Origin: Hoeflea sp.
GTDB taxonomy: Bacteria; Pseudomonadota; Alphaproteobacteria; Rhizobiales; Rhizobiaceae
Assembly (NCBI RefSeq): GCF_002733955.1
Contig: NZ_NVXQ01000005.1
Coordinates: forward strand, 62,001 to 126,000
Direction: 5' to 3'
DNA length: 64,000 bases
The notes under the pieces are model-generated. The model saw nothing but the letters and a program-made list of their open reading frames with translations, was not told the origin of the DNA and searched no databases. Both the position numbers and the translations under genes were made by a program. The stretch's first letter is position 1; every line of letters begins with the position of its first letter. This document shows, piece by piece, positions 1 to 9,954 of the stretch.

Positions 1-2
1 CA

Positions 3-85
3 GGTAGGACAAAGCATTGCAAACAAAGGATAATTCACTGTCCTACCTCATGCACTGAATACGGCGAAGGTAGGACAGGTAGGAC
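3..85. repeat. Iteron cluster GGTAGGAC, possible replication origin
   Basis: The 8-mer GGTAGGAC occurs in direct orientation at 3-10, 69-76 and 78-85, and inverted (GTCCTACC) at 40-47. The last two copies are separated by one base, and the stretch between copies is AT-rich (11-39). Repeated short motifs of this kind mark origins next to the primase or replicase genes of satellites and plasmids. Such a gene would lie just left of the window. The origin role is inferred; the repeats are seen directly. Confidence 0.55.
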
Positions 86-124
86 ACGGGCCGATATGTG
101 GCTTGGTGTTGAGCGGAGCGCGTC

Positions 125-373
125 ATGAGTGGGGTGGATATGCAGCACCTGACCAATCGGACGGGCGGCGCACTGCGAGGGGCAGGAAGGGAAGGCCCGC
201 ACGCTGGCTCACCACATAGCAGGGCGGGCGGGCCTTCCCTTCCGGATCGGTTGCGTGATCTGGCCTACCATGTTGAGCGACTGTCACCATCACACCGAGA
301 CCCCGAGAGGTTTCACGAAGACAAGAGCGAGATAGTTGCCGAGCTGATCAGGCTGGCGAGGGGCTTCCCATGA
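125..373 (+). CDS. Small hypothetical protein of the element
   Basis: An 82-residue protein of unknown function. The C-terminal half (from about residue 40) looks like a real, conserved fold: an Arg-rich stretch with the pattern RLRDLAYHVERLSPSHRDPE, then a helix with KSEIVAELIRLAR. I recall similar short proteins in alphaproteobacterial prophage-like elements, but I cannot assign a role. The N-terminal part is low-complexity (Gly/Arg/His/Ser) and is encoded by a perfect 16-bp inverted repeat. The gene lies between the iterons and terS on the same strand. The ATG at 125 is the only upstream start, but the true protein could begin later. Confidence 0.5.
   Translation: MSGVDMQHLTNRTGGALRGAGREGPHAGSPHSRAGGPSLPDRLRDLAYHVERLSPSHRDPERFHEDKSEIVAELIRLARGFP
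185..243. repeat. Perfect 16-bp inverted repeat
   Basis: Bases 185-200 (GGAAGGGAAGGCCCGC) are exactly complementary to 228-243, with a 27-base loop. The repeat lies inside the small gene at 125-373, so a terminator role would cut that gene. No T-run follows. It could be a protein-binding or packaging-recognition site, or an RNA hairpin. The symmetry is certain; the function is not. Confidence 0.6.
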
Positions 374-481
374 CGGCGGGTCCTTCCCCGGCAGATTGCG
401 CTGCGGGGCGGAAAGCTCCCGAGATTTCGCTCTGTGAGGTCAATTTGATAGATAAAAGAAAATAGAAACAAAGGGTTAGAT

Positions 482-985
482 ATGCAGATGGTGCATGGCA
501 ATGAGAAGATTGGAGAGCCGAAAAGCCTGAAAAAGGTGGATTTCGCCAAGCTTGTTGGCGTGTCGCCTGGTCGGGTGTCTCACATGATCCGGGATGGCCT
601 TCCCGTCGAACCCGATGGCCGGATCGATGTTGCACGGGGCAAGCTCTGGATACAGGCCAATGTTGATCCGAAGCGGTCGGCGGCACAATCAGCCCAAGGC
701 GAAATGCCTTTTGCCGCCGCTCCGGATGCCAGCGCCGAACGAATGCGGCTCTTGCGCGAACAGGCGGATTACGCGGCGCTCAAGAACGCCGAGAAACGGC
801 GTGAACTCGTCCCGTCATCCGAAGTGGAAAGGGTTTGGGAATCAGAATGGCGGCAACTGAGGTCGGCCGTTCTAGCCGCCCCGTCGCGCCTTCGCCAGTT
901 ATTGCCACACCTGTCCGCCGCTGATGTCTCGGAAATTGATGCCGAACTGAGGCGCATCCTGGAGGAATTCGGTAATGGTCAGTGA
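482..985 (+). CDS. Phage terminase small subunit (Nu1-like)
   Basis: This 167-residue protein is the likely DNA-recognition subunit of the packaging motor. Residues about 15-45 form a helix-turn-helix (KKVDFAKLVGVSPGRVSHMI) followed by a wing with GLPVEPDGRIDV, the pattern of lambda Nu1-type terminase small subunits. The C-terminal half is a charged helical region (EKRRELVPSSEVERVW), typical of this family. The start at 482 has an AAAGGG ribosome site about 7 bases upstream. The stop overlaps the start of the large terminase gene by 11 bases, which supports translational coupling and the assignment. In a satellite this protein would direct packaging to the element's own pac or cos site. Confidence 0.8.
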   Translation: MQMVHGNEKIGEPKSLKKVDFAKLVGVSPGRVSHMIRDGLPVEPDGRIDVARGKLWIQANVDPKRSAAQSAQGEMPFAAAPDASAERMRLLREQADYAALKNAEKRRELVPSSEVERVWESEWRQLRSAVLAAPSRLRQLLPHLSAADVSEIDAELRRILEEFGNGQ

Positions 986-2753
986 TGTTCTGGAAGCCGT
1001 GAGACTTCGCGCTCGCCGCGCTATGGTTCCGCCGCCGCGCCTGGCGCTTTCCGAATGGATCGAACGCGAGATCAGGCTTCCATCGGACGTGTCCGCGCTG
1101 CCTGGCTCGATCCGGCTCTATCCATTTCAGCGCGGCATGGCGGATGCCATGAGCGATCCCTCAATCCAGCGGGTGACAGTCGTAAAATCCGCCCGCATCG
1201 GGTACACGACATTGCTCGTCGGGCTGTTGGGATCGCACATCGCAAATGAGCCGGCGCCGGTCCTATTCGTGTTGCCGACCGAAGATGACTGCCGGAACTT
1301 CGTGGTCTCGAATGTCGAGCCGACATTCGAAGCCTCGCCTTGTCTCGCTGGCTCGCTGTCAAAGGACCAGGGCGACAACCGCAACACGCTCTTGTCCCGG
1401 CGCTTCCCTGGCGGGTCTCTCAAGGTGGTTGCAGCAAAAGCGCCGCGAAACTTGCGGGCTCATAACACGCGCATCCTGATCATTGATGAAGCGGATGCCA
1501 TGGCGATGACGCCGGAAGGTCCGCCGATATTGATCGCCGAACGGCGCACCATGCAGTTTCCGGACAGAAAGATCGTTGTCGGATCGACGCCGATCTATGA
1601 GGAAACCAGCCAAGTTCTCAGCGCTTATGAGCGATCTGACAAACGCATTTTTGAAGTGCCTTGCCCGGAATGTGGCGATCACCATGAGATCCGATGGCGG
1701 GACATCCATTGGCCGGAAGGCAAGCCGGAAGAAGCGCATTGGGCTTGCCCGTCATGCGGCGGAATCGTGGATGACCGCGGCAAACACACGATGGTCGCAA
1801 AGGGCCGTTGGCGCGCGACAGCGCCGAGCGTCAAACGACATGCGGGCTTCCGGATCAATGCGCTGGTCTCGCCCATGGAGAACGCCGCCTGGGGCGTTCT
1901 GGCGCAAGAGTTTCTTGATGCCAAAGACGATCCGACCCTGTTGCAGACATTCGTCAACCTGGTGCTGGGCGAAGGCTGGCGCGAGGAAGGCGGCGAGCTG
2001 GACGACGCCGAGCTTGCCAGCCGTGCCGAACCCTTCTCCCTTGATGATCTGCCCCCCGATGTTTTGGCGATCACGGCTGGCGTCGATGTGCAGCGGGACC
2101 GGCTTGAAGTGACCTTCGTTGGGTGGGGGCGTGACGGCGTGGCCTATGTCCTGGGGCACATGGTGATCTGGGGCTTGCCCGATGCAGACGCGACCTGGAC
2201 CGAACTCGACAGCGTTCTCAAGATGCGGTTCGCGCATCCGTTCGGCGGCAAACTCGCAATTGACGCGGTGGCGCTCGACAGTGGCGATGGCGAGACCATG
2301 GAAGATGTTTACGCCTTCTGTTTCCCCCGCGCATCCCGCAAGGTGCTGGCGATCAAGGGGGTGGAAGGCAACCGGCCATGGATCGAGAAGTCGAAACAGA
2401 AGATCCGGGGCGGCGCTCTTTGGATCGTCGGTGTTGACGGAATCAAGAGCCATCTGACCGCGCGGCTGTCGCGGAGCAACTCGATCCGGTTCTCGCATTC
2501 ACTGCCGCCAGTCTGGTTTGAGCAGTTGGCCGGTGAAAGGGTTGTGCTGAAATACACAAGAGGCCGCGCCCGAAGGCGGTTTGAGGAAATTCCCGGCCGT
2601 CGCCATGAGGCTCTGGACTGCGTGGTGTATGCATTCGCCGTTCGGCAAATTCTTAATGTGAATTGGGATCAGCGCGCCGATGATTTGAGGCGAGGTGTTG
2701 AAAGCAGCGCGCCGAAGGTGGCGGGCGTGATCAAGTCGAATTGGCTGCGGTGA
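975..2753 (+). CDS. Phage terminase large subunit, GpA family
   Basis: A 592-residue packaging ATPase and nuclease. The ATPase part shows a deviant Walker A at residues 71-78 (KSARIGYT), as in lambda gpA relatives, and a Walker B at 167-172 (ILIIDE). Two CxxC pairs near residues 230-262 (CPECG and CPSCG) form a zinc-ribbon-like insert. The nuclease part begins near residue 365 (ITAGVDVQRD) and has further acidic motifs (ALDSGDGETMEDV). Length is normal for the family, so the gene looks intact. A strong GGAGG site at 960-964 precedes the ATG at 975. GpA-type terminases usually make cohesive-end cuts, so a cos site may exist in the element. Confidence 0.92.
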   Translation: MVSDVLEAVRLRARRAMVPPPRLALSEWIEREIRLPSDVSALPGSIRLYPFQRGMADAMSDPSIQRVTVVKSARIGYTTLLVGLLGSHIANEPAPVLFVLPTEDDCRNFVVSNVEPTFEASPCLAGSLSKDQGDNRNTLLSRRFPGGSLKVVAAKAPRNLRAHNTRILIIDEADAMAMTPEGPPILIAERRTMQFPDRKIVVGSTPIYEETSQVLSAYERSDKRIFEVPCPECGDHHEIRWRDIHWPEGKPEEAHWACPSCGGIVDDRGKHTMVAKGRWRATAPSVKRHAGFRINALVSPMENAAWGVLAQEFLDAKDDPTLLQTFVNLVLGEGWREEGGELDDAELASRAEPFSLDDLPPDVLAITAGVDVQRDRLEVTFVGWGRDGVAYVLGHMVIWGLPDADATWTELDSVLKMRFAHPFGGKLAIDAVALDSGDGETMEDVYAFCFPRASRKVLAIKGVEGNRPWIEKSKQKIRGGALWIVGVDGIKSHLTARLSRSNSIRFSHSLPPVWFEQLAGERVVLKYTRGRARRRFEEIPGRRHEALDCVVYAFAVRQILNVNWDQRADDLRRGVESSAPKVAGVIKSNWLR

Positions 2754-2766
2754 AGGCCAGTTGGTG

Positions 2767-3099
2767 TCAGACTTTTAGTTCGGGCCAGCGCTGCAAGACC
2801 TGGACACGAACCGCGTTCCTTATTCTAGCCATAGCGGTCCCCCCGGCTCGAATCACATCTTCAGATATCTCGCTGCTAATAGTCGCGGCAGTGAGATGTG
2901 AATACTGTTCGGACACATAGGGAAAATGATGCAGCGCTTCTTGGTGAGCCGCTTTGCTCATGGCTTGAATCGACTTCAATGTACCCGTGCTTTTTTCGCT
3001 CTCAAAATGTTTCCACAATTCCTGAACGATAGTCCAACGGTCCAATACGGCCTGCGCCGCTAACACAATTTTCAATTCATCTGAGTTCGATTCATGCAT
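2767..3099 (-). CDS. Hypothetical protein in cargo region
   Basis: A 110-residue protein with no family I recognise. It looks soluble and mostly helical, with a lower-GC coding sequence than the terminase gene next to it. It is on the opposite strand to the packaging genes, starts at an ATG at 3099, and shares its strand with the XRE regulator upstream of it (gap about 120 bases containing two inverted repeats). The stop lies only 14 bases from the terL stop, so the two genes converge. Opposite orientation, AT-richness and position inside the packaging operon mark it as cargo. A regulatory-partner or defence role is possible but unsupported. Confidence 0.6.
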   Translation of the reverse strand: MHESNSDELKIVLAAQAVLDRWTIVQELWKHFESEKSTGTLKSIQAMSKAAHQEALHHFPYVSEQYSHLTAATISSEISEDVIRAGGTAMARIRNAVRVQVLQRWPELKV

Positions 3100-3148
3100 T
3101 TCAGTTTCGTCCTGATTCGAGGCAAAAGGGCACTTCCCGGCTTCTGGG

Positions 3149-3173
3149 TTCCGATAACCAGAGCTTATCGGAA
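3149..3173. promoter_or_regulatory. 9-bp inverted repeat between XRE gene and 2767-3099 gene
   Basis: TTCCGATAA at 3149-3157 pairs perfectly with TTATCGGAA at 3165-3173 across 7 bases. It lies upstream of the minus-strand gene starting at 3099 and downstream of the XRE gene. It is suited to an operator for a dimeric repressor, or a weak intercistronic hairpin. There is no T-run on the minus-strand exit. Confidence 0.45.
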
Positions 3174-3182
3174 GTCAGGATA

Positions 3183-3215
3183 ATTCAAGACCTCGCGTTG
3201 TGTGGAGTCTTGAAT
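3183..3215. promoter_or_regulatory. 9-bp inverted repeat just downstream of XRE gene
   Basis: ATTCAAGAC at 3183-3191 pairs with GTCTTGAAT at 3207-3215, with a 15-base spacer. Its right arm is part of a 14-bp sequence repeated at 3610-3623 on the other side of the XRE gene. It may be an operator or the 3' hairpin of the XRE transcript. Confidence 0.4.
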
Positions 3216-3221
3216 TTCCGA

Positions 3222-3461
3222 TTATTCGGCGGCATCGAGTGATTTGCGCAGACGGACGCCAGGTCCCTCGACGTCCTCAGGCAAAAAGACAATTCCTGCC
3301 TTCTCAAGCGCCGATTGCATGGCCTCGACGGTCCGCTCTTTCAGTTCCTCGCCTGCCTCAAATCTAGACACGGTTGCAGGGGCGACTTTCGCCAATGCAG
3401 CAAGTTCTCGCACTCCGAGTCCCAAGGCTACACGGGCCATCTTGCACTGCACTGGTAACAT
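3222..3461 (-). CDS. XRE-family helix-turn-helix regulator
   Basis: A 79-residue Cro/CI-type DNA-binding protein. The helix-turn-helix covers about residues 7-60 (ARVALGLGVRELAALAKVAPATVSRFEAG, split here by my reading into helices 1-3). The C-terminal tail has the AGIVFLPED and GPGVRLRK signature common in short alphaproteobacterial XRE proteins, and the protein has no dimerisation or cleavage domain. It starts at the ATG at 3461 and is on the minus strand, opposite to the packaging genes. A dyad at 3507-3521 upstream of its start suggests autoregulation. It may control the cargo genes or the packaging operon, or sense a helper phage; only the DNA-binding fold is clear. Confidence 0.85.
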   Translation of the reverse strand: MLPVQCKMARVALGLGVRELAALAKVAPATVSRFEAGEELKERTVEAMQSALEKAGIVFLPEDVEGPGVRLRKSLDAAE

Positions 3462-3506
3462 TTTTGTAGCACCGTTCCAAAAAGAGCTTGCAGATATAAC
3501 GCTGCC

Positions 3507-3521
3507 CTGTTATGAGAACAG
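3507..3521. promoter_or_regulatory. Candidate operator upstream of XRE gene
   Basis: CTGTT (3507-3511) and AACAG (3517-3521) form a dyad around five bases in the AT-rich region before the XRE start. A weaker outer pair (AACGCTG 3498-3504, CAGTGTT 3519-3525) is nearby. Its location suits autorepression by the XRE protein. Confidence 0.35.
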
Positions 3522-3652
3522 TGTTATTAATACATAGCCGTACCTTAACGGTTTAATTCATCGAATTCAAGGATTCGATGGGCGGCGAAGCTATGTCAAC
3601 ACGAGCGAGGTCTTGAATTTCCGCGCTCGTCACCTGCGAAAGGAATGGAATT

Positions 3653-4243
3653 ATGGGAGTAGCGAATTTTCACGGATCGGACTTCACGCGCATCGTAGAG
3701 CTGACGCCTGCGCTTCGCCGTCGCATGGAGCAAACAGTCGAACACCTGATTGCGCTGCTCGATACCTATGACGGCGATCCAGACGCGGAAAGCACCGGCG
3801 ATGATGAACCGTGGCTGGGTTGGCCGCAGCAAGGTATCGCGGCGCTTCTGAGTACGAGCGGCGATGATCGCGAGCTTGAAGACGAAAACGATGAAGACGG
3901 CGCAGACGATGAACCGACCATCGGCTGGACGGAGAACGGCTTCTGCGGACAAACCTTCGATACCGATGAGTTGGAAGAGGATCATGAGGACGGTCCTGCA
4001 GCCGACGAGAAACACAGCGATGCATTTCCAACGTCGCTTCGCAGCTCGTGGGATGGCAGTGGCTTGTATGAGCTGCAGACGACCGATGACGAAGCCCCTG
4101 TTATCTACCAGGTCGAGCGGGCCTTTAGCGATGACGGCCGCGAACAATACTGGGCTGCTCGCATGTGGGATGGATATCCTCTCGCCCCTCGAGAGTGCTT
4201 AAACTCGGACAGTCCATTTGTTCTGAGGAAGGTCGAGGGGTGA
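3653..4243 (+). CDS. Acidic hypothetical protein, cargo region
   Basis: A 196-residue very acidic protein. Its N-terminal part reads VELTPALRRRMEQTVEHLIALLDTYDGDPDAE, followed by repeated acidic motifs ending in GW: DDEPWLGW near residue 50 and DDEPTIGW near residue 90. This layout matches a group of uncharacterised rhizobial proteins with an N-terminal helix and (E)PSLGW-like repeats, often near prophages; I know of no function for them. An AAAGGAA ribosome site precedes the ATG at 3653. The gene is followed by a 74-base gap and the MerR-like gene. The charge would suit a DNA mimic, but that is speculation. Confidence 0.65.
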   Translation: MGVANFHGSDFTRIVELTPALRRRMEQTVEHLIALLDTYDGDPDAESTGDDEPWLGWPQQGIAALLSTSGDDRELEDENDEDGADDEPTIGWTENGFCGQTFDTDELEEDHEDGPAADEKHSDAFPTSLRSSWDGSGLYELQTTDDEAPVIYQVERAFSDDGREQYWAARMWDGYPLAPRECLNSDSPFVLRKVEG

Positions 4244-4317
4244 CTTTGCAGAAGGGACCCCCCTCACGAATGTCGCTTTTTTCTTGACCTTGGAAAAGTC
4301 TCGTACGAGGCTAAGCC

Positions 4318-4845
4318 ATGATCTTGGACCTAGACGAACCCCGATATACACAAGCGGAAGTTCTGAGAATGCTGCCGGGCTTGAAGGCCAAGCAGCTCCA
4401 GAACTGGAGTAATCGTGGTGTGCTGGACACAGGCGATCAAAAGCCGGGAAAGGGTCTAAGGCGGAAATACACCCCTGCTGGTGTGATCGCCCTGGATTTC
4501 ATGCAAGAGGCAACACTCTTCGGAATTCCACCAGCGAATGCGCGCCAGATGGCAGATGAATACGTCGCGGCGGCGGATGAGTTCCTGGGTTCAAATCCGG
4601 AAGTCATCACCAAGGCCGATGGATGCCGGTGGATACCGGTGACGCCGGAGAAGATGGAGAGTTTCAGGAAAGGGCGGATCACCCGGATTAGCGACAGCGA
4701 GTATCACCTCTTTGTGGAGCGCCGTGACGGCGTAATTCCTTTCGAAGATAGGTTCTCGACGATTTTTCATGTTGCGCTTGAGGTGGATTACCGCGTGGCC
4801 ATGGCGGTCAACAGGATGTTTCTTTTGGAGTGCGGGCAAATCTGA
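4318..4845 (+). CDS. MerR-like winged-helix protein of the packaging module
   Basis: A 175-residue protein. Residues about 9-65 resemble a MerR-type winged helix: YTQAEVLRMLPGLKAKQLQNW, then a basic wing (GKGLRRKYTPAGVIALDFM). The remaining residues have no domain I recognise. It has no metal-binding cysteine cluster of the classical MerR sensors. It lies between the cargo genes and the portal gene; its stop TGA overlaps the portal start as TGATG, so the two are co-translated. The constant position next to the portal suggests a regulator or an assembly partner of the packaging module. Confidence 0.65.
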   Translation: MILDLDEPRYTQAEVLRMLPGLKAKQLQNWSNRGVLDTGDQKPGKGLRRKYTPAGVIALDFMQEATLFGIPPANARQMADEYVAAADEFLGSNPEVITKADGCRWIPVTPEKMESFRKGRITRISDSEYHLFVERRDGVIPFEDRFSTIFHVALEVDYRVAMAVNRMFLLECGQI

Positions 4846-6167
4846 TGATGGCTTTTTCCGACATATTCGCTGTTTTCAAGAGGAACAAAGCGGACTCGAA
4901 ACATGTCCGTAGCGTGAACGCTGCAAGCTCGAACTGGCCGGATGATGCCAAGAGCTTCGCCCCGAGCGCGGATATTCGAGGCGCGTCACAGACGGTTTCG
5001 CAGCGGGTTGCCAGCCTCTATCTGAATGATCCGGTTGTTCGATCTGGCGTCAATTTACTGGTTTCCAATATCGTTGGCAGCGGATGCCGGTTGAACACAC
5101 CGGATCAGGCGATCGACGCTGAATTCAATTCGGCCAGAATTGACCCTTCGCGGCGGATGTCCAGCGCCGCACTACAGCGGGCTTTCATCCGATCCATTGC
5201 ATTAGCCGGCGAGGCGCTGGCACTGCACCGGCTAATCGGTGGCAGCTATGCTTGCCAGATACTCGACCCAGAGCAACTGGACCGGAGTAAGAACGAAGAT
5301 TTCGGCGATGGCGGCGGGATCGTGGCCGGTGTCGAAAAGACATTTGACGGCCAGATTGTCGCCTACTGGATTTTGCCGCAAGCGCCGGGCGATCCGTTCG
5401 CTAGGGCGATCCAGTCCCGGCGCTTCCCTGCTTCCGAAGTGATCCACATTTTCGAACAGGAGTTTCCTGGTCAGGTGCGCGGGATCAGCCCGTTTACGCC
5501 GGTCTTGTCGGTGCTCAATCAGGCAAGCATCGCAATCGAGGCGCGGCTCAAACAGTTGCAGGTCAGCGCCATGCTGACAGCGATCCTGACCAGTCCCGAT
5601 GGAACTGACGCTTTCGAGGGGAACCCCAACGCAAGCCTTGAGCCTGGCGCGATCATCCGCGCCCGTCCGGGCGAAGATGTTTCCGTGGTCAACGGACCGC
5701 AAAGCCCCGAATTCAATTCCTTCATGAAGGTGCTTTACCGGCAGGTCGCAGCGGCGCTGGGCCTGACTTACGAAGACCTGATCGGCGATCTTGAGGGTGT
5801 CAATTATTCGAGCTTCCGAGGCGGTGCATTGACCGCCAGGCGCAAGGCCGAGGCGCAGCGCAAGGTTCTTCTGATAGAAGGATTTCTACAGCCGGTCAGT
5901 GAGCGGTGGCAGGCCATCGAAGTGTTTTCCGGGCGGCAGCGGCAGATCGTCAACGCCGGATGGATCGAACCGGCATGGCCGCAGGTGGACCCGGCGAAGG
6001 AAGCCGACGCCGAGATTGCCTTGCTGGACGCCGGATTGAAAAGCCGCCGCGAAATCATCGAGGCGCGTGGGCGGGAATTCGAAACGGTGCAAGCCGAGAT
6101 TGCCGCCGATGAACCCCGCACCCCGAAAACCCCGGCAATCGCCAAACCAGATGAGGTGGTCGAATGA
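4845..6167 (+). CDS. Phage portal protein, lambda family
   Basis: A 440-residue portal that would form the dodecameric ring through which DNA enters the head. It shows the lambda-portal hallmarks: an early SLYLNDPVVRSGVNLLVSNIVG segment (split here: LYLNDPVVRSGV and LLVSNIVGSG), a middle HIFEQEFPGQVRGISPF motif, and the YEDLIGDLEGVNYSSFRGGAL region near residue 325. I chose the ATG at 4845, which overlaps the upstream stop. A GTG at 4830 is possible but lacks a good ribosome site. The stop overlaps the next start by four bases. Length is slightly short for the family, with a Pro-rich C-terminal tail. Confidence 0.93.
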   Translation: MMAFSDIFAVFKRNKADSKHVRSVNAASSNWPDDAKSFAPSADIRGASQTVSQRVASLYLNDPVVRSGVNLLVSNIVGSGCRLNTPDQAIDAEFNSARIDPSRRMSSAALQRAFIRSIALAGEALALHRLIGGSYACQILDPEQLDRSKNEDFGDGGGIVAGVEKTFDGQIVAYWILPQAPGDPFARAIQSRRFPASEVIHIFEQEFPGQVRGISPFTPVLSVLNQASIAIEARLKQLQVSAMLTAILTSPDGTDAFEGNPNASLEPGAIIRARPGEDVSVVNGPQSPEFNSFMKVLYRQVAAALGLTYEDLIGDLEGVNYSSFRGGALTARRKAEAQRKVLLIEGFLQPVSERWQAIEVFSGRQRQIVNAGWIEPAWPQVDPAKEADAEIALLDAGLKSRREIIEARGREFETVQAEIAADEPRTPKTPAIAKPDEVVE

Positions 6168-7936
6168 TCATTCAACGCTTCCAGCCGGTGATCCGGCCCA
6201 ACTCTTACGATCCGGAAACCCGGACCGGAACGGCGGTCATCGCCAGCGACAGCATTGTTGATGGAATCCGGATCGATTTCGACAGCTTTTTCCTGAACGG
6301 CTTTCCGATAAGCCTTCCGCTGCAGCCGGATCACAACAACGCCGTTACCGAAAAACGTGGCGAGTGGTTCGACTTCCAGATCGAGCAGAACGAGAACGGG
6401 AAGAAGCTCCTTATTGGAAAGTTCCGCCTATCGAAGCGAGCTGACAATGAGGCGCTGCACACGCTCTTGACCGAAGGGATGGCCCCGGCCGTCTCGATCA
6501 GTTTCCGCGTCACCGAGTGGCGCAACCATACCGACGCCGCGACCGGTAAGAAAGTCCGCATTGCCCACCGGGGCGAGCTGGTCGAAGCGTCGTTTGTCAA
6601 CAGGCCAGCGGACCCAACTTCTCAAATCAGGATGATGACAATGGAAAACGACAATCCCGATCCGCAGGTCGATGCCGTGCGGATGACGCCAGACCAGTGG
6701 GACACCATCTGCCGTGCGGCGGGTATCCCCGATGAAATCCGAACCAGCCTTCGCGATAGCGATGCGGAGGATGCCGACAAGATGAAAATCGCATTGGCTG
6801 CGACTGAGCGTAGCGCAGCGCCCGTCAACACGACGCGCAATCACAACGATCAGACGCTCGACAATCCCGGGAATCTGCGAACTGCGGTGATCGAATTCTA
6901 CGATACGGTGAACCGCGGCGAACAGCCGACCGGAGCGGCGGCGGAAGTGTTTGCCAATGGCGAACGCGGCCTTGCCGAACGGATTTGCCGGTCTGCTGGA
7001 GTATCAACGGTGGGCCTCACCGATCATGAGCTTATCCGGAGGGCTGCAACCACCAGCGACTTCGCCATCATTGCCGGCACAACCCACAACTTGGCAATGC
7101 GGCGCGAACTCGCGGCGGCCGCCTCGCCGATCTCAAGCATGTTTGGCCGGGACACCGTTGGAACCTTCAATGCGGAAACCAGGGCGCTCGCAGACTGGAC
7201 CAGCCTCGCCATTGCCGACAAGCTGGAGAGCGGCGAATACAAACATTCGTTCATCACCGAGTCCGGTGAGACCGTACAAGTGGCGGTGATCGGCGGGATC
7301 ACCTCGAAGAGCTACGAGCTGAACATCAACGCCGGTTCCCGACTTGGCAACGAAGGCACACAGTTCGGGCGGCGCATGGCGGCGGAGATTGCCGATCGGC
7401 AGGTTGCCTATCTTGAACAGGCCAGCCTCGCAGGGCCGACAATGAAGGACACCAACCCGGTGTTCCATGCCAGCCGAGGCAACATCGAGACCTTCACCAT
7501 CGATGCTGCCACCGAGGTCCGCCAGCTCATGCTGCTGCGGTCTGCGATGGCAAAGCGCAAGGGTGCGGGTGATGTCATGATCGGGCAATACCCGACCGAC
7601 TGGCTTGTGCATTCGGACTTCGAAGAGACTGCGCTGCGGCTTCTGTCTCAGGTTCAGGCAAGCGCGGTTGCTGACGTGAACCCGATGGCTGGCAAGCTCA
7701 AGATCACTGTAGAGCCTCGCTTGTCCGATCCGGATACAAGCTGGCTGGTTGTCGATCCCGCAAAGATGGACGGTGCGGTGAGAGTGTTCCTTCAAGGGCA
7801 GGAAGCACCCTTCACCGACAGCCGGATCAACTTCGACACCGACGCGGTGCAGTTCAAAATCCGCCATCCGTTCGGCCTGGGCTGGCTCGAATGGCGGTCC
7901 TGGACTCGTCTCGACCACGCAGCCGGCGGAGCATAA
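6164..7936 (+). CDS. Fused prohead protease-major capsid protein
   Basis: A 590-residue fusion. Residues 1 to about 150 look like an HK97-type prohead protease (peptidase S78-like): His57 in LQPDHNNAV, Ser111 in APAVSISF, and GELVEASFVNRPADP near residue 140 are the expected catalytic surroundings. Residues about 180-260 form a charged, scaffold-like linker. Residues about 260-590 are an HK97-fold capsid protein, ending in RHPFGLGWLEWRSWTRLDHA. Such fusions allow protease and scaffold to be delivered inside the prohead in fixed ratio and then cut away. ATG at 6164 overlaps the portal stop (ATGA). The frame is intact. Confidence 0.88.
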   Translation: MIIQRFQPVIRPNSYDPETRTGTAVIASDSIVDGIRIDFDSFFLNGFPISLPLQPDHNNAVTEKRGEWFDFQIEQNENGKKLLIGKFRLSKRADNEALHTLLTEGMAPAVSISFRVTEWRNHTDAATGKKVRIAHRGELVEASFVNRPADPTSQIRMMTMENDNPDPQVDAVRMTPDQWDTICRAAGIPDEIRTSLRDSDAEDADKMKIALAATERSAAPVNTTRNHNDQTLDNPGNLRTAVIEFYDTVNRGEQPTGAAAEVFANGERGLAERICRSAGVSTVGLTDHELIRRAATTSDFAIIAGTTHNLAMRRELAAAASPISSMFGRDTVGTFNAETRALADWTSLAIADKLESGEYKHSFITESGETVQVAVIGGITSKSYELNINAGSRLGNEGTQFGRRMAAEIADRQVAYLEQASLAGPTMKDTNPVFHASRGNIETFTIDAATEVRQLMLLRSAMAKRKGAGDVMIGQYPTDWLVHSDFEETALRLLSQVQASAVADVNPMAGKLKITVEPRLSDPDTSWLVVDPAKMDGAVRVFLQGQEAPFTDSRINFDTDAVQFKIRHPFGLGWLEWRSWTRLDHAAGGA

Positions 7937-7939
7937 TCG

Positions 7940-8152
7940 ATGACGGCGGTGGCGGATATGCAGGCTCAACTTGAAGAGCTTCGCGCCCTTCGAGCGCAGG
8001 GTGTTCGGAAGGCGAGGTTCGGTGATGATGAAACGGAATTCCGATCCGACGCCGAGCTTGCTTCCGCCATCGCCGATCTTGAACGGCGCATCGCAGCGGA
8101 GACCGCGCCGCGATCGCGCATGATCTACCCGAGAGTTTCGAAAGGATACTGA
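7940..8152 (+). CDS. gpW-like head-tail joining protein
   Basis: A 70-residue basic protein starting 3 bases after the capsid stop. Two helices (VADMQAQLEELRALRAQG and DAELASAIADLERRIAAE) flank a short beta-hairpin with VRKARFGDDETEFRS. This is the size and layout of lambda gpW, which closes the filled head below the portal and gives the platform for tail attachment. It is the only connector-type gene in the element. Its presence without tail genes fits heads made to accept another phage's tails. Confidence 0.75.
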   Translation: MTAVADMQAQLEELRALRAQGVRKARFGDDETEFRSDAELASAIADLERRIAAETAPRSRMIYPRVSKGY

Positions 8153-8153
8153 C

Positions 8154-8480
8154 ATGCGGAATTTCTATCAGACAGGCGACACCATCAACGCGACCGCGCC
8201 GAGCGGCGGCGTGGTGTCGGGCCAAGCCCTCTTGATCGGGGCGCTTTTTGGTGTGGCGGCGACCGATGCAGCGGAAGCCGCCAAGTTCGCTTTGCACCTG
8301 ACCGGCTGCTACCGATTGCCGAAGGCGACGGGCAACGGCCTCACAGAAGGCCAGAAAGCCTATTGGGATGACACGGCCAAGAAGATCACCGGCACGGCAA
8401 GCGGCAACACCCTCGTTGGCAATGCCATCGAACCAGCCGCCACCGATGCCACGGAAGCTGTTGTTAGATTGGCAAACTGA
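8154..8480 (+). CDS. DUF2190 capsid cement/decoration protein
   Basis: A 108-residue protein matching the DUF2190 pattern: N-terminal YQTGDTINATAPSGGVVSGQ, a small hydrophobic segment (ALLIGALFGVAATDA), and a C-terminal NTLVGNAIEPAATDATEAVVRLAN half. Family members decorate or stabilise phage heads. It starts at an ATG at 8154, one base after the gpW-like stop, and is the last gene of the packaging run. Length is normal. In tailed phages the next genes would be tail completion and tube genes; here the run ends at a hairpin. Confidence 0.82.
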   Translation: MRNFYQTGDTINATAPSGGVVSGQALLIGALFGVAATDAAEAAKFALHLTGCYRLPKATGNGLTEGQKAYWDDTAKKITGTASGNTLVGNAIEPAATDATEAVVRLAN

Positions 8481-8546
8481 TCCGAATCCGTCGCGCTTGT
8501 TGGTGCGGGCCGCGACGGTAAATGGTGGTGCCTGAGACGCCACCTT

Positions 8547-8576
8547 CGCCAGCCCCGATGGGGGTCGGGGCTGGCG
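8547..8576 (+). terminator. 12-bp stem hairpin after the packaging genes
   Basis: Bases 8547-8558 pair with 8565-8576 around six bases (TGGGGG). The stem is very GC-rich. It follows the DUF2190 stop by 66 bases and ends the packaging run before the small basic gene. No T-run follows, so it may act as a weak or Rho-assisted terminator, or as a recognition site. Confidence 0.55.
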
Positions 8577-8598
8577 CTCAAAACGGAAGGGCTTGATC

Positions 8599-8799
8599 AT
8601 GGAAAAGCGGAAATCGACATTGAGACAGATAACCGTGACCAGGGCCCTCAAGGCCGCTAGGGCGGCTGGATATGCGCGAGCCCGCCTCATCACCCATCCA
8701 GATGGCCGGATAGAGATCATCGGCGAAGATACTCCGGAAGTGACGCCAGCGACCGAACAATCACCTTTCGAACAGTGGAAGTCCAAGAATGCGCGCTAG
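8599..8799 (+). CDS. Small basic protein upstream of integrase
   Basis: A 66-residue protein with an N-terminal basic helix (KRKSTLRQITVTRALKAARAAG) and a beta strand pair (ARLITHPDGRIEIIGEDTP). Its ATG at 8599 has a GGAAGG ribosome site 8 bases upstream, and its last 11 bases overlap the integrase start. Small proteins of this kind commonly precede integrases in alphaproteobacterial elements. An excisionase or recombination-directionality role would suit the position, but no winged-helix motif is clear. Confidence 0.65.
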   Translation: MEKRKSTLRQITVTRALKAARAAGYARARLITHPDGRIEIIGEDTPEVTPATEQSPFEQWKSKNAR

Positions 8800-9877
8800 G
8801 CTCAAGGGCATTAACAAGATCACGCGGACCCTCGCCAGCGGCGAAAAGGCCGTCTACTACTATCACCGCGCAACGGGTGCTCGCCTTTCGGGCGAACCCG
8901 GCTCCACCGAATTTCTCGCATCGATCGCGGAAGCCGAGGCAAAATCCCGCAACCGATCGCAAGGAACATTGTCTGGTCTGATCCGAGAATTCGAAGCGAC
9001 AGCCAAGTGGCGGAAGCTCGCCGATAGCACACGCTCAGAGTACCGGCGAGTGATGACCTTCTGGGAAGATCAGTATGGGACGTGTCCACATGTCGCCCTT
9101 GAGGACAAGGCATTTCGGCGCGACGTGCTGAAATGGCATGACGGCTACTCTGCTGCGCATCCCCGCGAAGCCGACAACCGAGTGACGATCCTTGCCCGTG
9201 TGCTGTCGTGGGCCGCGAAGGATGGGCCGCTCGATCGCAATGTGCTCGACAGCTTTGACCGAGCCTACCAGGGCGACAGGTCGGAAAAAATTTGGCTCCC
9301 CGAACATGTCGAAGCATTCATGGCCGTGGCCGAGCCGGAAATGCGGCTTGCCATCGTTCTCGCTCTGCATACCGGGCAGCGCCAAGGCGACCTTCTGCAA
9401 CTGGCCTGGTCAAACTACAATGGAACGCACCTCGCCCTTCGCCAAGGCAAAAGCCGCCGAGCGGACAAACCGGGCAGGCTGGTTACGATCCGCTGCACGA
9501 AGGCGCTCAAGACCACGCTGGACGGGCTAGACAAGCGATCAACGCTGATCCTGACCACAAAGACCGGCCGGGCCTTTAAGAAGCGCTACTTCGCTGATCA
9601 ATGGGAAAAGACGTGCAAGGCCGCAGGCATTGAGGACCTGCATTTTCACGACATTCGCGGAACAACCGTCACCATGCTCTTTCAGGCGGGCTGCAATCTT
9701 GCCGAGATTGTCTCGATCACCGGCCATTCACTTCGACGCGCTCAAGAGATTCTGGACCGGTATCTTGCCCGAACCAGCACCATGGCTGACAGCGCCATTG
9801 CCAAGTTCGAGAACGTTCTGGAAACAGACTTTGCAAAACGCACTGCAAAACAGGAGGGTGGAAAAGATGCTAAGTGA
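8789..9877 (+). CDS. int: Tyrosine-type site-specific integrase
   Basis: A 362-residue tyrosine recombinase. The N-terminal part (to about 70) is a basic arm-binding region, residues about 75-165 the SAM-like core-binding domain, and the rest the catalytic domain. Catalytic residues are visible: Arg198 (HTGQRQGDLL), His287 and Arg290 (FHDIRG), His313 (TGHS) and Tyr325 (LDRYLA). The stop codon ends exactly one base before the CCA end of the tRNA-Arg gene, so that tRNA is the likely attachment gene. Transcription points out of the element towards the 3' end of the tRNA gene, which is on the opposite strand. Confidence 0.95.
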   Translation: MRARLKGINKITRTLASGEKAVYYYHRATGARLSGEPGSTEFLASIAEAEAKSRNRSQGTLSGLIREFEATAKWRKLADSTRSEYRRVMTFWEDQYGTCPHVALEDKAFRRDVLKWHDGYSAAHPREADNRVTILARVLSWAAKDGPLDRNVLDSFDRAYQGDRSEKIWLPEHVEAFMAVAEPEMRLAIVLALHTGQRQGDLLQLAWSNYNGTHLALRQGKSRRADKPGRLVTIRCTKALKTTLDGLDKRSTLILTTKTGRAFKKRYFADQWEKTCKAAGIEDLHFHDIRGTTVTMLFQAGCNLAEIVSITGHSLRRAQEILDRYLARTSTMADSAIAKFENVLETDFAKRTAKQEGGKDAK

Positions 9878-9954
9878 TGGCGCGCCCGAAAGGATTCGAA
9901 CCTCTGACCCCCAGATTCGTAGTCTGGTGCTCTATCCAGCTGAGCTACGGGCGC
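9878..9954 (-). tRNA. tRNA-Arg(ACG)
   Basis: A 77-base tRNA on the minus strand with encoded CCA (9878-9880). The acceptor stem is GCGCCCG (5' end at 9954) paired with CGGGCGC and a G discriminator. The D arm is AGCTCAGCTGGATAGAGC, and the anticodon arm is CCAGA-CTACGAA-TCTGG with ACG at positions 34-36. The T arm contains TTCGAAT. The mobile element joins it at the 3' end and leaves the tRNA intact, as is usual when integration rebuilds the gene. Confidence 0.97.

Follow-up and report, generated by a model that had tools for sequence, protein, structure and literature searches.

The 64,000-nucleotide stretch of Hoeflea sp. DNA considered here (the window; contig NZ_NVXQ01000005.1, positions 62,001 to 126,000, written C37:62001-126000, in a draft genome of 4.86 Mb and 40 contigs) begins inside a mobile element of 12.06 kb. 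Judged from its genes, ends and relatives, this element is very probably an integrated capsid-forming phage satellite, which would borrow tails and lysis from a helper. It appears to belong to a lineage that is widespread in the Alphaproteobacteria and whose capsid, on the evidence here, is not sequence kin of that of EcCI2, a capsid-forming phage-inducible chromosomal island (cf-PICI). Capsid-forming satellites are a recent discovery and are best described in enterobacteria and Gram-positive bacteria. An earlier note, made from the window alone, had proposed such a satellite and suggested a separate lineage. The first proposal is supported by an att-bounded unit without recognised tail or lysis genes, and the second by gene order, by the portal and capsid trees (that of the large terminase subunit, TerL, separates less cleanly) and by the absence of sequence kinship to the EcCI2 capsid.

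The element is closed on both sides. A direct repeat with an exact 46-nt core occurs once on each side, at C37:59814-59859 (attL; C37:52001-72000 was fetched as L002) and at window positions 9877-9922 (attR), and the spacing of the two copies gives a span of 12,063 bp. The core is the 3' half of a tRNA-Arg(acg) gene (window 9878-9954, minus strand), and its first base is the last base of the integrase stop codon. The left end, correctly described in the earlier note as out of view, lies about 2.2 kb left of the window start. The stretch between holds an open reading frame (ORF) of 131 amino acids (aa), a 479-aa helicase and an iteron array, and no tail or lysis gene was recognised there with Pfam or PHROGs. 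Tail, baseplate or lysis genes upstream in the same unit would, according to that note, have made the element an ordinary prophage; with both ends in hand, none was recognised. Beyond attL lie host-type genes, one for a GntR regulator and two that we read by eye, from translations, as an oxidoreductase and a TRAP-type transporter. The features are listed below in window coordinates unless a contig position is given; locus counts refer to a related set of 181 loci in which gene presence was scored with profiles built in this analysis, and HTH stands for helix-turn-helix.

C37:59971-60366, left of the window: 131-aa ORF; PHROG 25398, unknown function
C37:60363-61802, left of the window: helicase, 479 aa; DUF5906
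1..86, no strand: right part of the iteron array, TGTCCTACC in both directions; the array starts outside the window, at C37:61808
482..985, plus: terminase small subunit (TerS), Nu1-like; PHROG 57 (E=1e-28); Pfam Nu1 weak, below cut-off (E=0.02)
975..2753, plus: TerL, lambda gpA type; GpA_ATPase (4e-85), GpA_nuclease (7e-96)
2767..3099, minus: antisense ORF, 110 aa, at a variable cargo position downstream of the antisense HTH gene
3222..3461, minus: XRE-type HTH protein; HTH_31 just under the Pfam cut-off (E=2.5e-5)
3653..4243, plus: 196-aa ORF divergent from the HTH gene, without weighty family match; matches in 16/181 loci including this one
4318..4845, plus: MerR-like HTH protein; MerR_1 under the Pfam cut-off (E=0.001); matches in 49/181 loci including this one
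4830..6167, plus: portal, lambda family; Phage_portal_2 (E=9e-69)
6164..7936, plus: prohead protease fused to the major capsid protein; match to PHROG 4523 at E=1e-56 (major head and protease protein)
7940..8152, plus: gpW-like head-tail adaptor Ad1; PHROG 2545 (E=1e-14), no Pfam match
8154..8480, plus: head decoration or cement protein, DUF2190; Phage_cement_2 (E=7e-28), PHROG 122
8593..8799, plus: 68-aa ORF directly before the integrase, without weighty Pfam or PHROG match; matches in 46/181 loci including this one
8789..9877, plus: tyrosine integrase; Phage_integrase (E=4e-17), PHROG 1 (E=4e-34)
9877..9922, no strand: attR core, 46 nt identical to attL, 3' half of tRNA-Arg

An 82-aa ORF between the iterons and TerS completes this left-to-right order. 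Sixteen hand-chosen ORFs, a count that includes a 91-aa ORF lying on the iterons, were compared with Pfam and PHROGs (E up to 1), and no tail, baseplate, holin, endolysin or HNH family was found among them. According to one report, cf-PICIs such as EcCI2 and EcCIEDL933 encode their own capsid, protease, portal, connectors, both terminases and an HNH endonuclease, and need a helper for tails only (PMC10690885). The Hoeflea element likewise encodes its own capsid, protease (here fused to the capsid), portal and both terminase subunits, has no gene of a Pfam or PHROG tail or lysis family among its 16 candidate ORFs, and is an att-bounded island of satellite size with an adjoining integrase, in a tRNA-Arg gene. 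In contrast to cf-PICIs, no HNH endonuclease was found beside its packaging genes among these ORFs. The tail or lysis genes, or their remnants, that would characterize a prophage were not recognised inside the att-bounded unit. Gene transfer agents are domesticated chromosomal clusters that include tail genes and lack an integrase or att sites; here an integrase, att sites and a helicase are present, and tails were not recognised. Only one neck gene, the gpW-like adaptor, was recognised in the element, and no stopper. The components that the earlier note had listed (TerS, TerL, portal, protease-capsid fusion, gpW-like connector, DUF2190 protein and integrase) are all present, each with an open reading frame. 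They are not fully contiguous as it had stated, since a 2.1-kb cassette of two antisense and two sense ORFs separates TerL from the portal. Its statement that no tail or lysis gene lies between capsid and integrase holds, only Ad1, the cement gene and the 68-aa ORF being accepted there.

The layout of the element recurs in dozens of other loci, which is more than chance would produce. Relatives were collected by their capsids. In IMG/VR, the capsid sequence gave 8 loci and a capsid alignment the best 80 of 569 relatives; a genome scan gave the best 80 of 149 relatives (the named loci) and used an eight-row capsid alignment, a 17-row alignment being too diverse. An integrase lies within 5.5 kb of the capsid in 59 of the 66 named loci with at least 4 kb downstream. 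The other seven (L184, L194, L196, L197, L210, L211, L213) include the tailed phage L197 and L194, in which the terminases follow the cement gene; the remaining five are incomplete or ambiguous. TerS, TerL and portal follow in order in 52/66 named loci with more than 7 kb upstream. Moreover, many relatives have ends of their own. A script comparing sequence downstream of the integrase with sequence upstream of the terminases found an exact flanking repeat of at least 16 nt in 59 of 73 usable loci (at least 20 nt in 32), as against 0/84 for reversed sequence. The test took in 84 loci, of which 11 were unusable (searched stretches overlapping or contig short); three elements are listed twice (L042/L138, L044/L140, L050/L201), and L205 (8.2 kb, 16 nt) is doubtful. 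The repeat-to-repeat span is 8.2-12.8 kb, with a median of 11.8, and many of the longer repeats resemble, by eye, the 3' ends of tRNAs of different kinds.

Where the labels of the named hosts give a class, it is Alphaproteobacteria, with the exception of L179, a 5.3-kb contig of unclear gene content from a metagenome-assembled genome labelled Gammaproteobacteria. Several others are labelled only Proteobacteria, Pseudomonadota or bacterium. Some capsid match occurs in 56/297 genomes of a same-order sample, ordinary prophages included, and in 60/385 genomes of a class-wide sample, where matches are mostly weak. In a phylum-wide sample (82/398 genomes), the two strongest matches outside the class (L262, L263) are tailed phages. 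Among 16 hand-picked places from 15 same-order genomes, 14 have an integrase, L055 is reordered and L056 is ambiguous. In five elements (L055, L096, L194, L273, L301), the terminases follow the cement gene or the integrase lies upstream of the portal, as if one circular map had been opened at a different point. In L056 (G287), a 3,183-aa open frame (L056:4825-14376) starts at the cement position, right after a satellite-type head module.

Tailed phages with related capsids differ from the element in the arrangement of the late genes. Eight phage records contain TerS, TerL, a gpW-size gene, portal, capsid and a DUF2190-size gene, followed by neck, tail or lysis genes, although the LPPA33 annotation is all hypothetical and some records have additional genes interposed. 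In the element, the regulatory cassette lies between TerL and portal instead, gpW has been displaced, and an integrase stands where the tail genes would follow. Ad1 follows the capsid in 71/71 named loci scored, 16/16 genome loci and 73/77 viral loci and never precedes the portal; the count for named loci allows ORFs called with early starts and omits the tailed phage L197, and a narrower filter gave 48/72 after the capsid and one before the portal. For comparison, 20 control loci were hand-picked from weaker capsid matches of the same order, and in these Ad1 precedes the portal in 13/18 and follows the capsid in 3/18, and was not found in 4. Measured in 58 named loci, the TerL-portal gap is 1,985 bp at the median, compared with 216 bp in 12 control loci.

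Tail and lysis genes were sought in the same loci with 90 proteins from the eight phage records. These queries match 15/20 control loci, 12 of them with at least six ORFs and three (L236, L238, L241) with one. In the related set, only 13/181 loci show a match anywhere, and matches between capsid and integrase occur in 1/59 named loci (L167), 0/14 genome loci and 1/9 viral loci (L112). Both exceptions are tape-measure genes according to PHROGs (L167:12150-14603, in Bosea vaviloviae, and L112:11780-13828). A further ORF of L167 resembles a phage tail chaperone, a match without confirmation in PHROGs. A similar tape-measure gene lies between capsid and integrase in L302 (G106), which groups with phages in the portal tree, where it stands as L238. 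Chimeric tails are possible in all three; a tape measure without other tail parts, as in L112 and L167, makes sense if the remaining parts come from elsewhere. Elsewhere in the locus, tape-measure-like ORFs occur in L064, L084, L136, L187 and L206. A gene like that for the RcKemmy minor tail protein gp12 lies directly upstream of TerS in the satellites L131 (2338-3042) and L174 (4097-4801); that of L131 belongs to PHROG 6367, of unknown function. Upstream minus-strand ORFs resembling a baseplate hub (PHROG 177) occur at L068:5632-6720 and L114:1157-2137, both loci having the satellite head module.

In three close pairs, the ratio of nonsynonymous to synonymous change (pN/pS) is 0.02-0.14 for TerL, portal and capsid, which are under purifying selection on this measure, and 0.05-0.40 for Ad1 and cement. 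Between the window and four of its nearest relatives, the packaging and head genes give 0.21-0.52, with synonymous sites near saturation. The integrase appears in a different combination in L135 and L137, two satellites in one Brucella pituitosa genome, where the TerL, portal and capsid proteins are 95-99% identical and the integrases 25%. In a portal tree of 111 rows, one branch with 100% support in the Shimodaira-Hasegawa-like approximate likelihood ratio test (SH-aLRT) parts 85 satellite-side rows from 20 tailed phages and 6 unclassified control loci. Of the satellite-side rows, 52 have an integrase and an att repeat, 23 an integrase only and 10 neither scored. The capsid tree (102 rows) requires one change between satellite and phage sides, with 80% support. 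These two trees and that of TerL are quick LG trees with long-branch warnings and no inferred root, and a clean split was favoured by the choice of rows, which followed their likeness to the window. The portal tree omits L004, L042, L044, L045, L049, L050 and L053 as copies or presumed copies of other rows (L045 among the presumed ones), and L197 was assigned to the phages by hand; its labels were carried over to the TerL and capsid trees.

The individual proteins point to a head module of lambda and Mu type. The portal profile (A2) matches a PDB chain named Portal protein B (8k38, E=1e-36), which we take to be that of lambda, and the adaptor profile (A5) matches head-to-tail joining protein W (1hyw, E=1e-4), presumably also from lambda, whose gpW joins the head to the tail. 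TerL is the sole match to phrog_15, the gpA-type terminase, in its draft genome. In the capsid fusion, the Phage_capsid_4 domain (E=2e-27) is accompanied by Peptidase_S78 just under the cut-off (E=5e-4), and residues H57 and S111 are invariant in 17/17 aligned rows. The capsid profile (A1) matches the phage major capsid protein 9jod (E=4e-8) and Mu GpT-domain proteins (E=0.002). It did not find the EcCI2 capsid (9gyi), the one cf-PICI capsid compared, at E up to 10. The structural model of the fusion (mean pLDDT 77, pTM 0.53) has a strand-rich N-terminal domain, a helical linker and a C-terminal part; its best structural matches in the PDB are HK97-fold capsids, and the EcCI2 capsid was reached by fold alone, at rank 34 with 11% identity. 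Against phage records, the capsid has 42 matches, all below 60% identity, one of which covers over 80% of its length; its identity to the capsids of phages of the RcKemmy and Psul1 type is 28-29% and extends over a part of the protein. The helicase has 267 matches, also all below 60%. It corresponds to the C-terminal portion of longer phage primases, so that the half with the primase is apparently missing.

The 679 bp from the helicase stop codon to TerS (C37:61803-62481) contain ten exact copies of TGTCCTACC in both directions, which has no copy elsewhere in the element and one in window positions 10001-64000. Two 34-nt inverted arms, 97% complementary, surround an 86-nt centre, and an alternating CG/TG tract lies between the inverted iteron arms (L002:9915-9945). 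This array is a putative replication origin. The 91-aa ORF at C37:61853-62128 overlies the array and was rejected as a gene. Upstream of TerS, relatives L034 and L036 have four iteron-like repeats of different sequence, and L037 has none in the 231 bp tested. In the cassette between TerL and portal, the antisense HTH gene has homologues in 51/115 loci with a measurable gap. The 110-aa antisense ORF has no weighty match in Pfam, PHROGs or PADLOC, and its place is taken by other ORFs in relatives. A scan of 102 of 375 gap ORFs (alignment A4, matches pooled over loci) gave single ORFs matching a type II methyltransferase, Fic, HEPN, GmrSD and other defence-like families, and the gap looks like a cargo slot. 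The 68-aa ORF is possibly excisionase-like, a guess from position.

Three other explanations of the element were weighed. A defective prophage, that is, a decaying lambda-type phage with its tail and lysis genes deleted, would account for the homology of the head genes with those of complete tailed phages, RcKemmy for example. However, dozens of loci share the tailless layout, and many of them have att repeats of their own; gpW has a fixed place after the capsid in the named loci scored, compared with its usual place before the portal in controls; and purifying selection on TerL, portal and capsid of close pairs and open head and packaging ORFs do not fit decay. Because layout, att repeats and selection agree over so many loci, this origin is judged very unlikely. 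It is also highly improbable that the element is a head-only transfer device or a domesticated head that packages DNA without any helper tail, comparable to a gene transfer agent. While the lack of a recognised tail gene or known helper and the single remaining neck gene are what such a device would show, the gpW-like adaptor lies after the capsid in every named locus scored, two satellites carry a tape-measure gene, and the integrase, att sites and replication module indicate a mobile rather than a domesticated element.

The third alternative is that the element is an ordinary and already catalogued member of a described cf-PICI radiation. The likeness in encoded head functions and borrowed tails favours this, as does a source that mentions three capsid radiations of cf-PICIs and lists the satellite families (PMC11389934). 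Nevertheless, the missing HNH gene, the protease-capsid fusion and the gpA/Nu1-type terminase set it apart, and the EcCI2 capsid is reached by fold and not by sequence. In addition, full-text literature on satellites or cf-PICIs together with Rhizobiales, Alphaproteobacteria or Rhodobacteraceae yielded no such element, which is weak evidence of novelty because most subscription papers and all bioRxiv preprints lie outside the search. Based on these observations, membership in a described radiation is rather unlikely.

Several observations count against the satellite reading or weaken parts of it. Excision, particles and transfer are predicted from gene content. As only one neck gene was recognised, docking on a helper's stopper is an assumption. 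The tail test was blank in 5/20 control loci, so an unusual tail protein might be missed in the relatives as well. The TerL tree (91 rows) requires three changes between satellite and phage sides, which means that terminases were exchanged or some rows are misplaced, and weakens a single origin for TerL. Among the matches examined in 18 genomes of the genus, a satellite-type capsid is found only in the genome of the window and in G1014, so the copy may be recent and possibly inactive. Finally, the two tail regions in the same genome are at most candidates for a helper.

If the element is a satellite, its cycle may be pictured as follows. Upon induction, it would be excised and replicated from the iteron origin, the antisense HTH gene between TerL and portal being the likely repressor of the switch. 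Its gpA/Nu1 terminase, of a family that we take to be cos-type, would then package the element's own genome into its own head; this head should be small because 12 kb is less than one third of the 38-41 kb of RcKemmy and Psul1. The gpW-like adaptor presented at the neck would dock on a foreign stopper. The stopper, tail and lysis would be taken from a co-resident or infecting tailed phage, and particles would be released by the helper's lysis. The tape-measure genes of L167 and L112 speak for a role in tail assembly, as in the Vibrio satellite PLE11, for which chimeric tails are described (PMC12987554).

With moderate confidence, we favour an old, separate satellite lineage in Hyphomicrobiales, Rhodobacterales and scattered other orders that arose from a lambda/Mu-type head module. 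Its late operon would have been broken twice, once between TerL and portal, where gpW gave way to a lysogeny switch and cargo slot, and once after cement, where an integrase took the place of all that followed. gpW, the only joint retained, would have moved behind the capsid, and some members would have regained a tape measure, with or without a tail chaperone, which may set the length of the stolen tail.

Known systems resemble the element in different respects. Compared with the cf-PICIs described, it has a lambda/Mu-type head (lambda-family portal, gpA terminase, fused protease-capsid, gpW, DUF2190) and no HNH gene; some cf-PICIs carry putative tape-measure genes (PMC12987554), as do the relatives L167 and L112. 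The Streptomyces satellites MulchRoom and MiniFlayer also have a terminase, portal, capsid and head-tail adaptor, and MulchRoom has an integrase and apparently uses its helper's tail. However, by their published description they are actinobacterial, measure 14.8 and 17.4 kb and contain HNH genes (PMC10690885). Rhodobacter phage RcKemmy and Paracoccus phage Psul1 have TerS, TerL, a gpW gene, portal, protease-capsid and a DUF2190-size gene in broadly the same order, but are complete phages, 38-41 kb long, in which cement is followed by tail and lysis genes and gpW lies between TerL and portal. Among the Vibrio phage-inducible chromosomal island-like elements (PLE), PLE11 adds its own tape measure and tail assembly chaperone to a helper-built tail (PMC12987554), comparable to the chaperone-like and tape-measure pair in L167; PLE, however, remodels a capsid thought to be stolen from the helper (PMC10945586), whereas the present element encodes its own.

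A second class-wide lineage on a different head, if confirmed, would mean that keeping the head and stealing the tail evolved more than once. It would also provide a natural experiment on what foreign tails require of a head, here apparently little beyond a gpW adaptor. Moreover, some of the 10-13-kb entries in viral databases that resemble prophage fragments are probably complete satellites. Culturable strains are among the named hosts, and clear satellites with flanking repeats are present in Stappia indica (L146), Rhodobacter viridis (L165) and Celeribacter neptunius (L172), none of them known as a pathogen.

Within the genus, some capsid match occurs in 12/18 genomes, and the genome of the window holds a full-length capsid. 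G1014 holds a reordered satellite (L301) with portal, capsid, Ad1, cement, a homologue of the 131-aa ORF, TerS, TerL and an antisense HTH gene. The candidate helpers in the window's own genome are a Mu-like tail region on contig C12, with sheath, tape measure and a gp47-like gene, and a region on C31 with a tape measure near the contig end. A gene transfer agent was considered as helper and rejected, no PF05065 capsid being found in this genome at E up to 0.01. Nine genus relatives keep the tRNA-Arg gene and the right flank, and in the 17-20 kb fetched from each no gene of the satellite was found apart from pieces of the integrase C-terminus in two of these stretches. Because the left flank next to the tRNA is not conserved, no clean empty site is available among the nine. 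In G1012, a 125-bp match (79%) runs across another att copy at a distance of 7.4 kb, and the DNA enclosed by the copies is a different insert, of about 7.4 kb (L292:6265-13762). G1010 possibly has a further insert, of 62 kb, between copies of this tRNA-Arg att sequence (G1010:C1:866453-929251).

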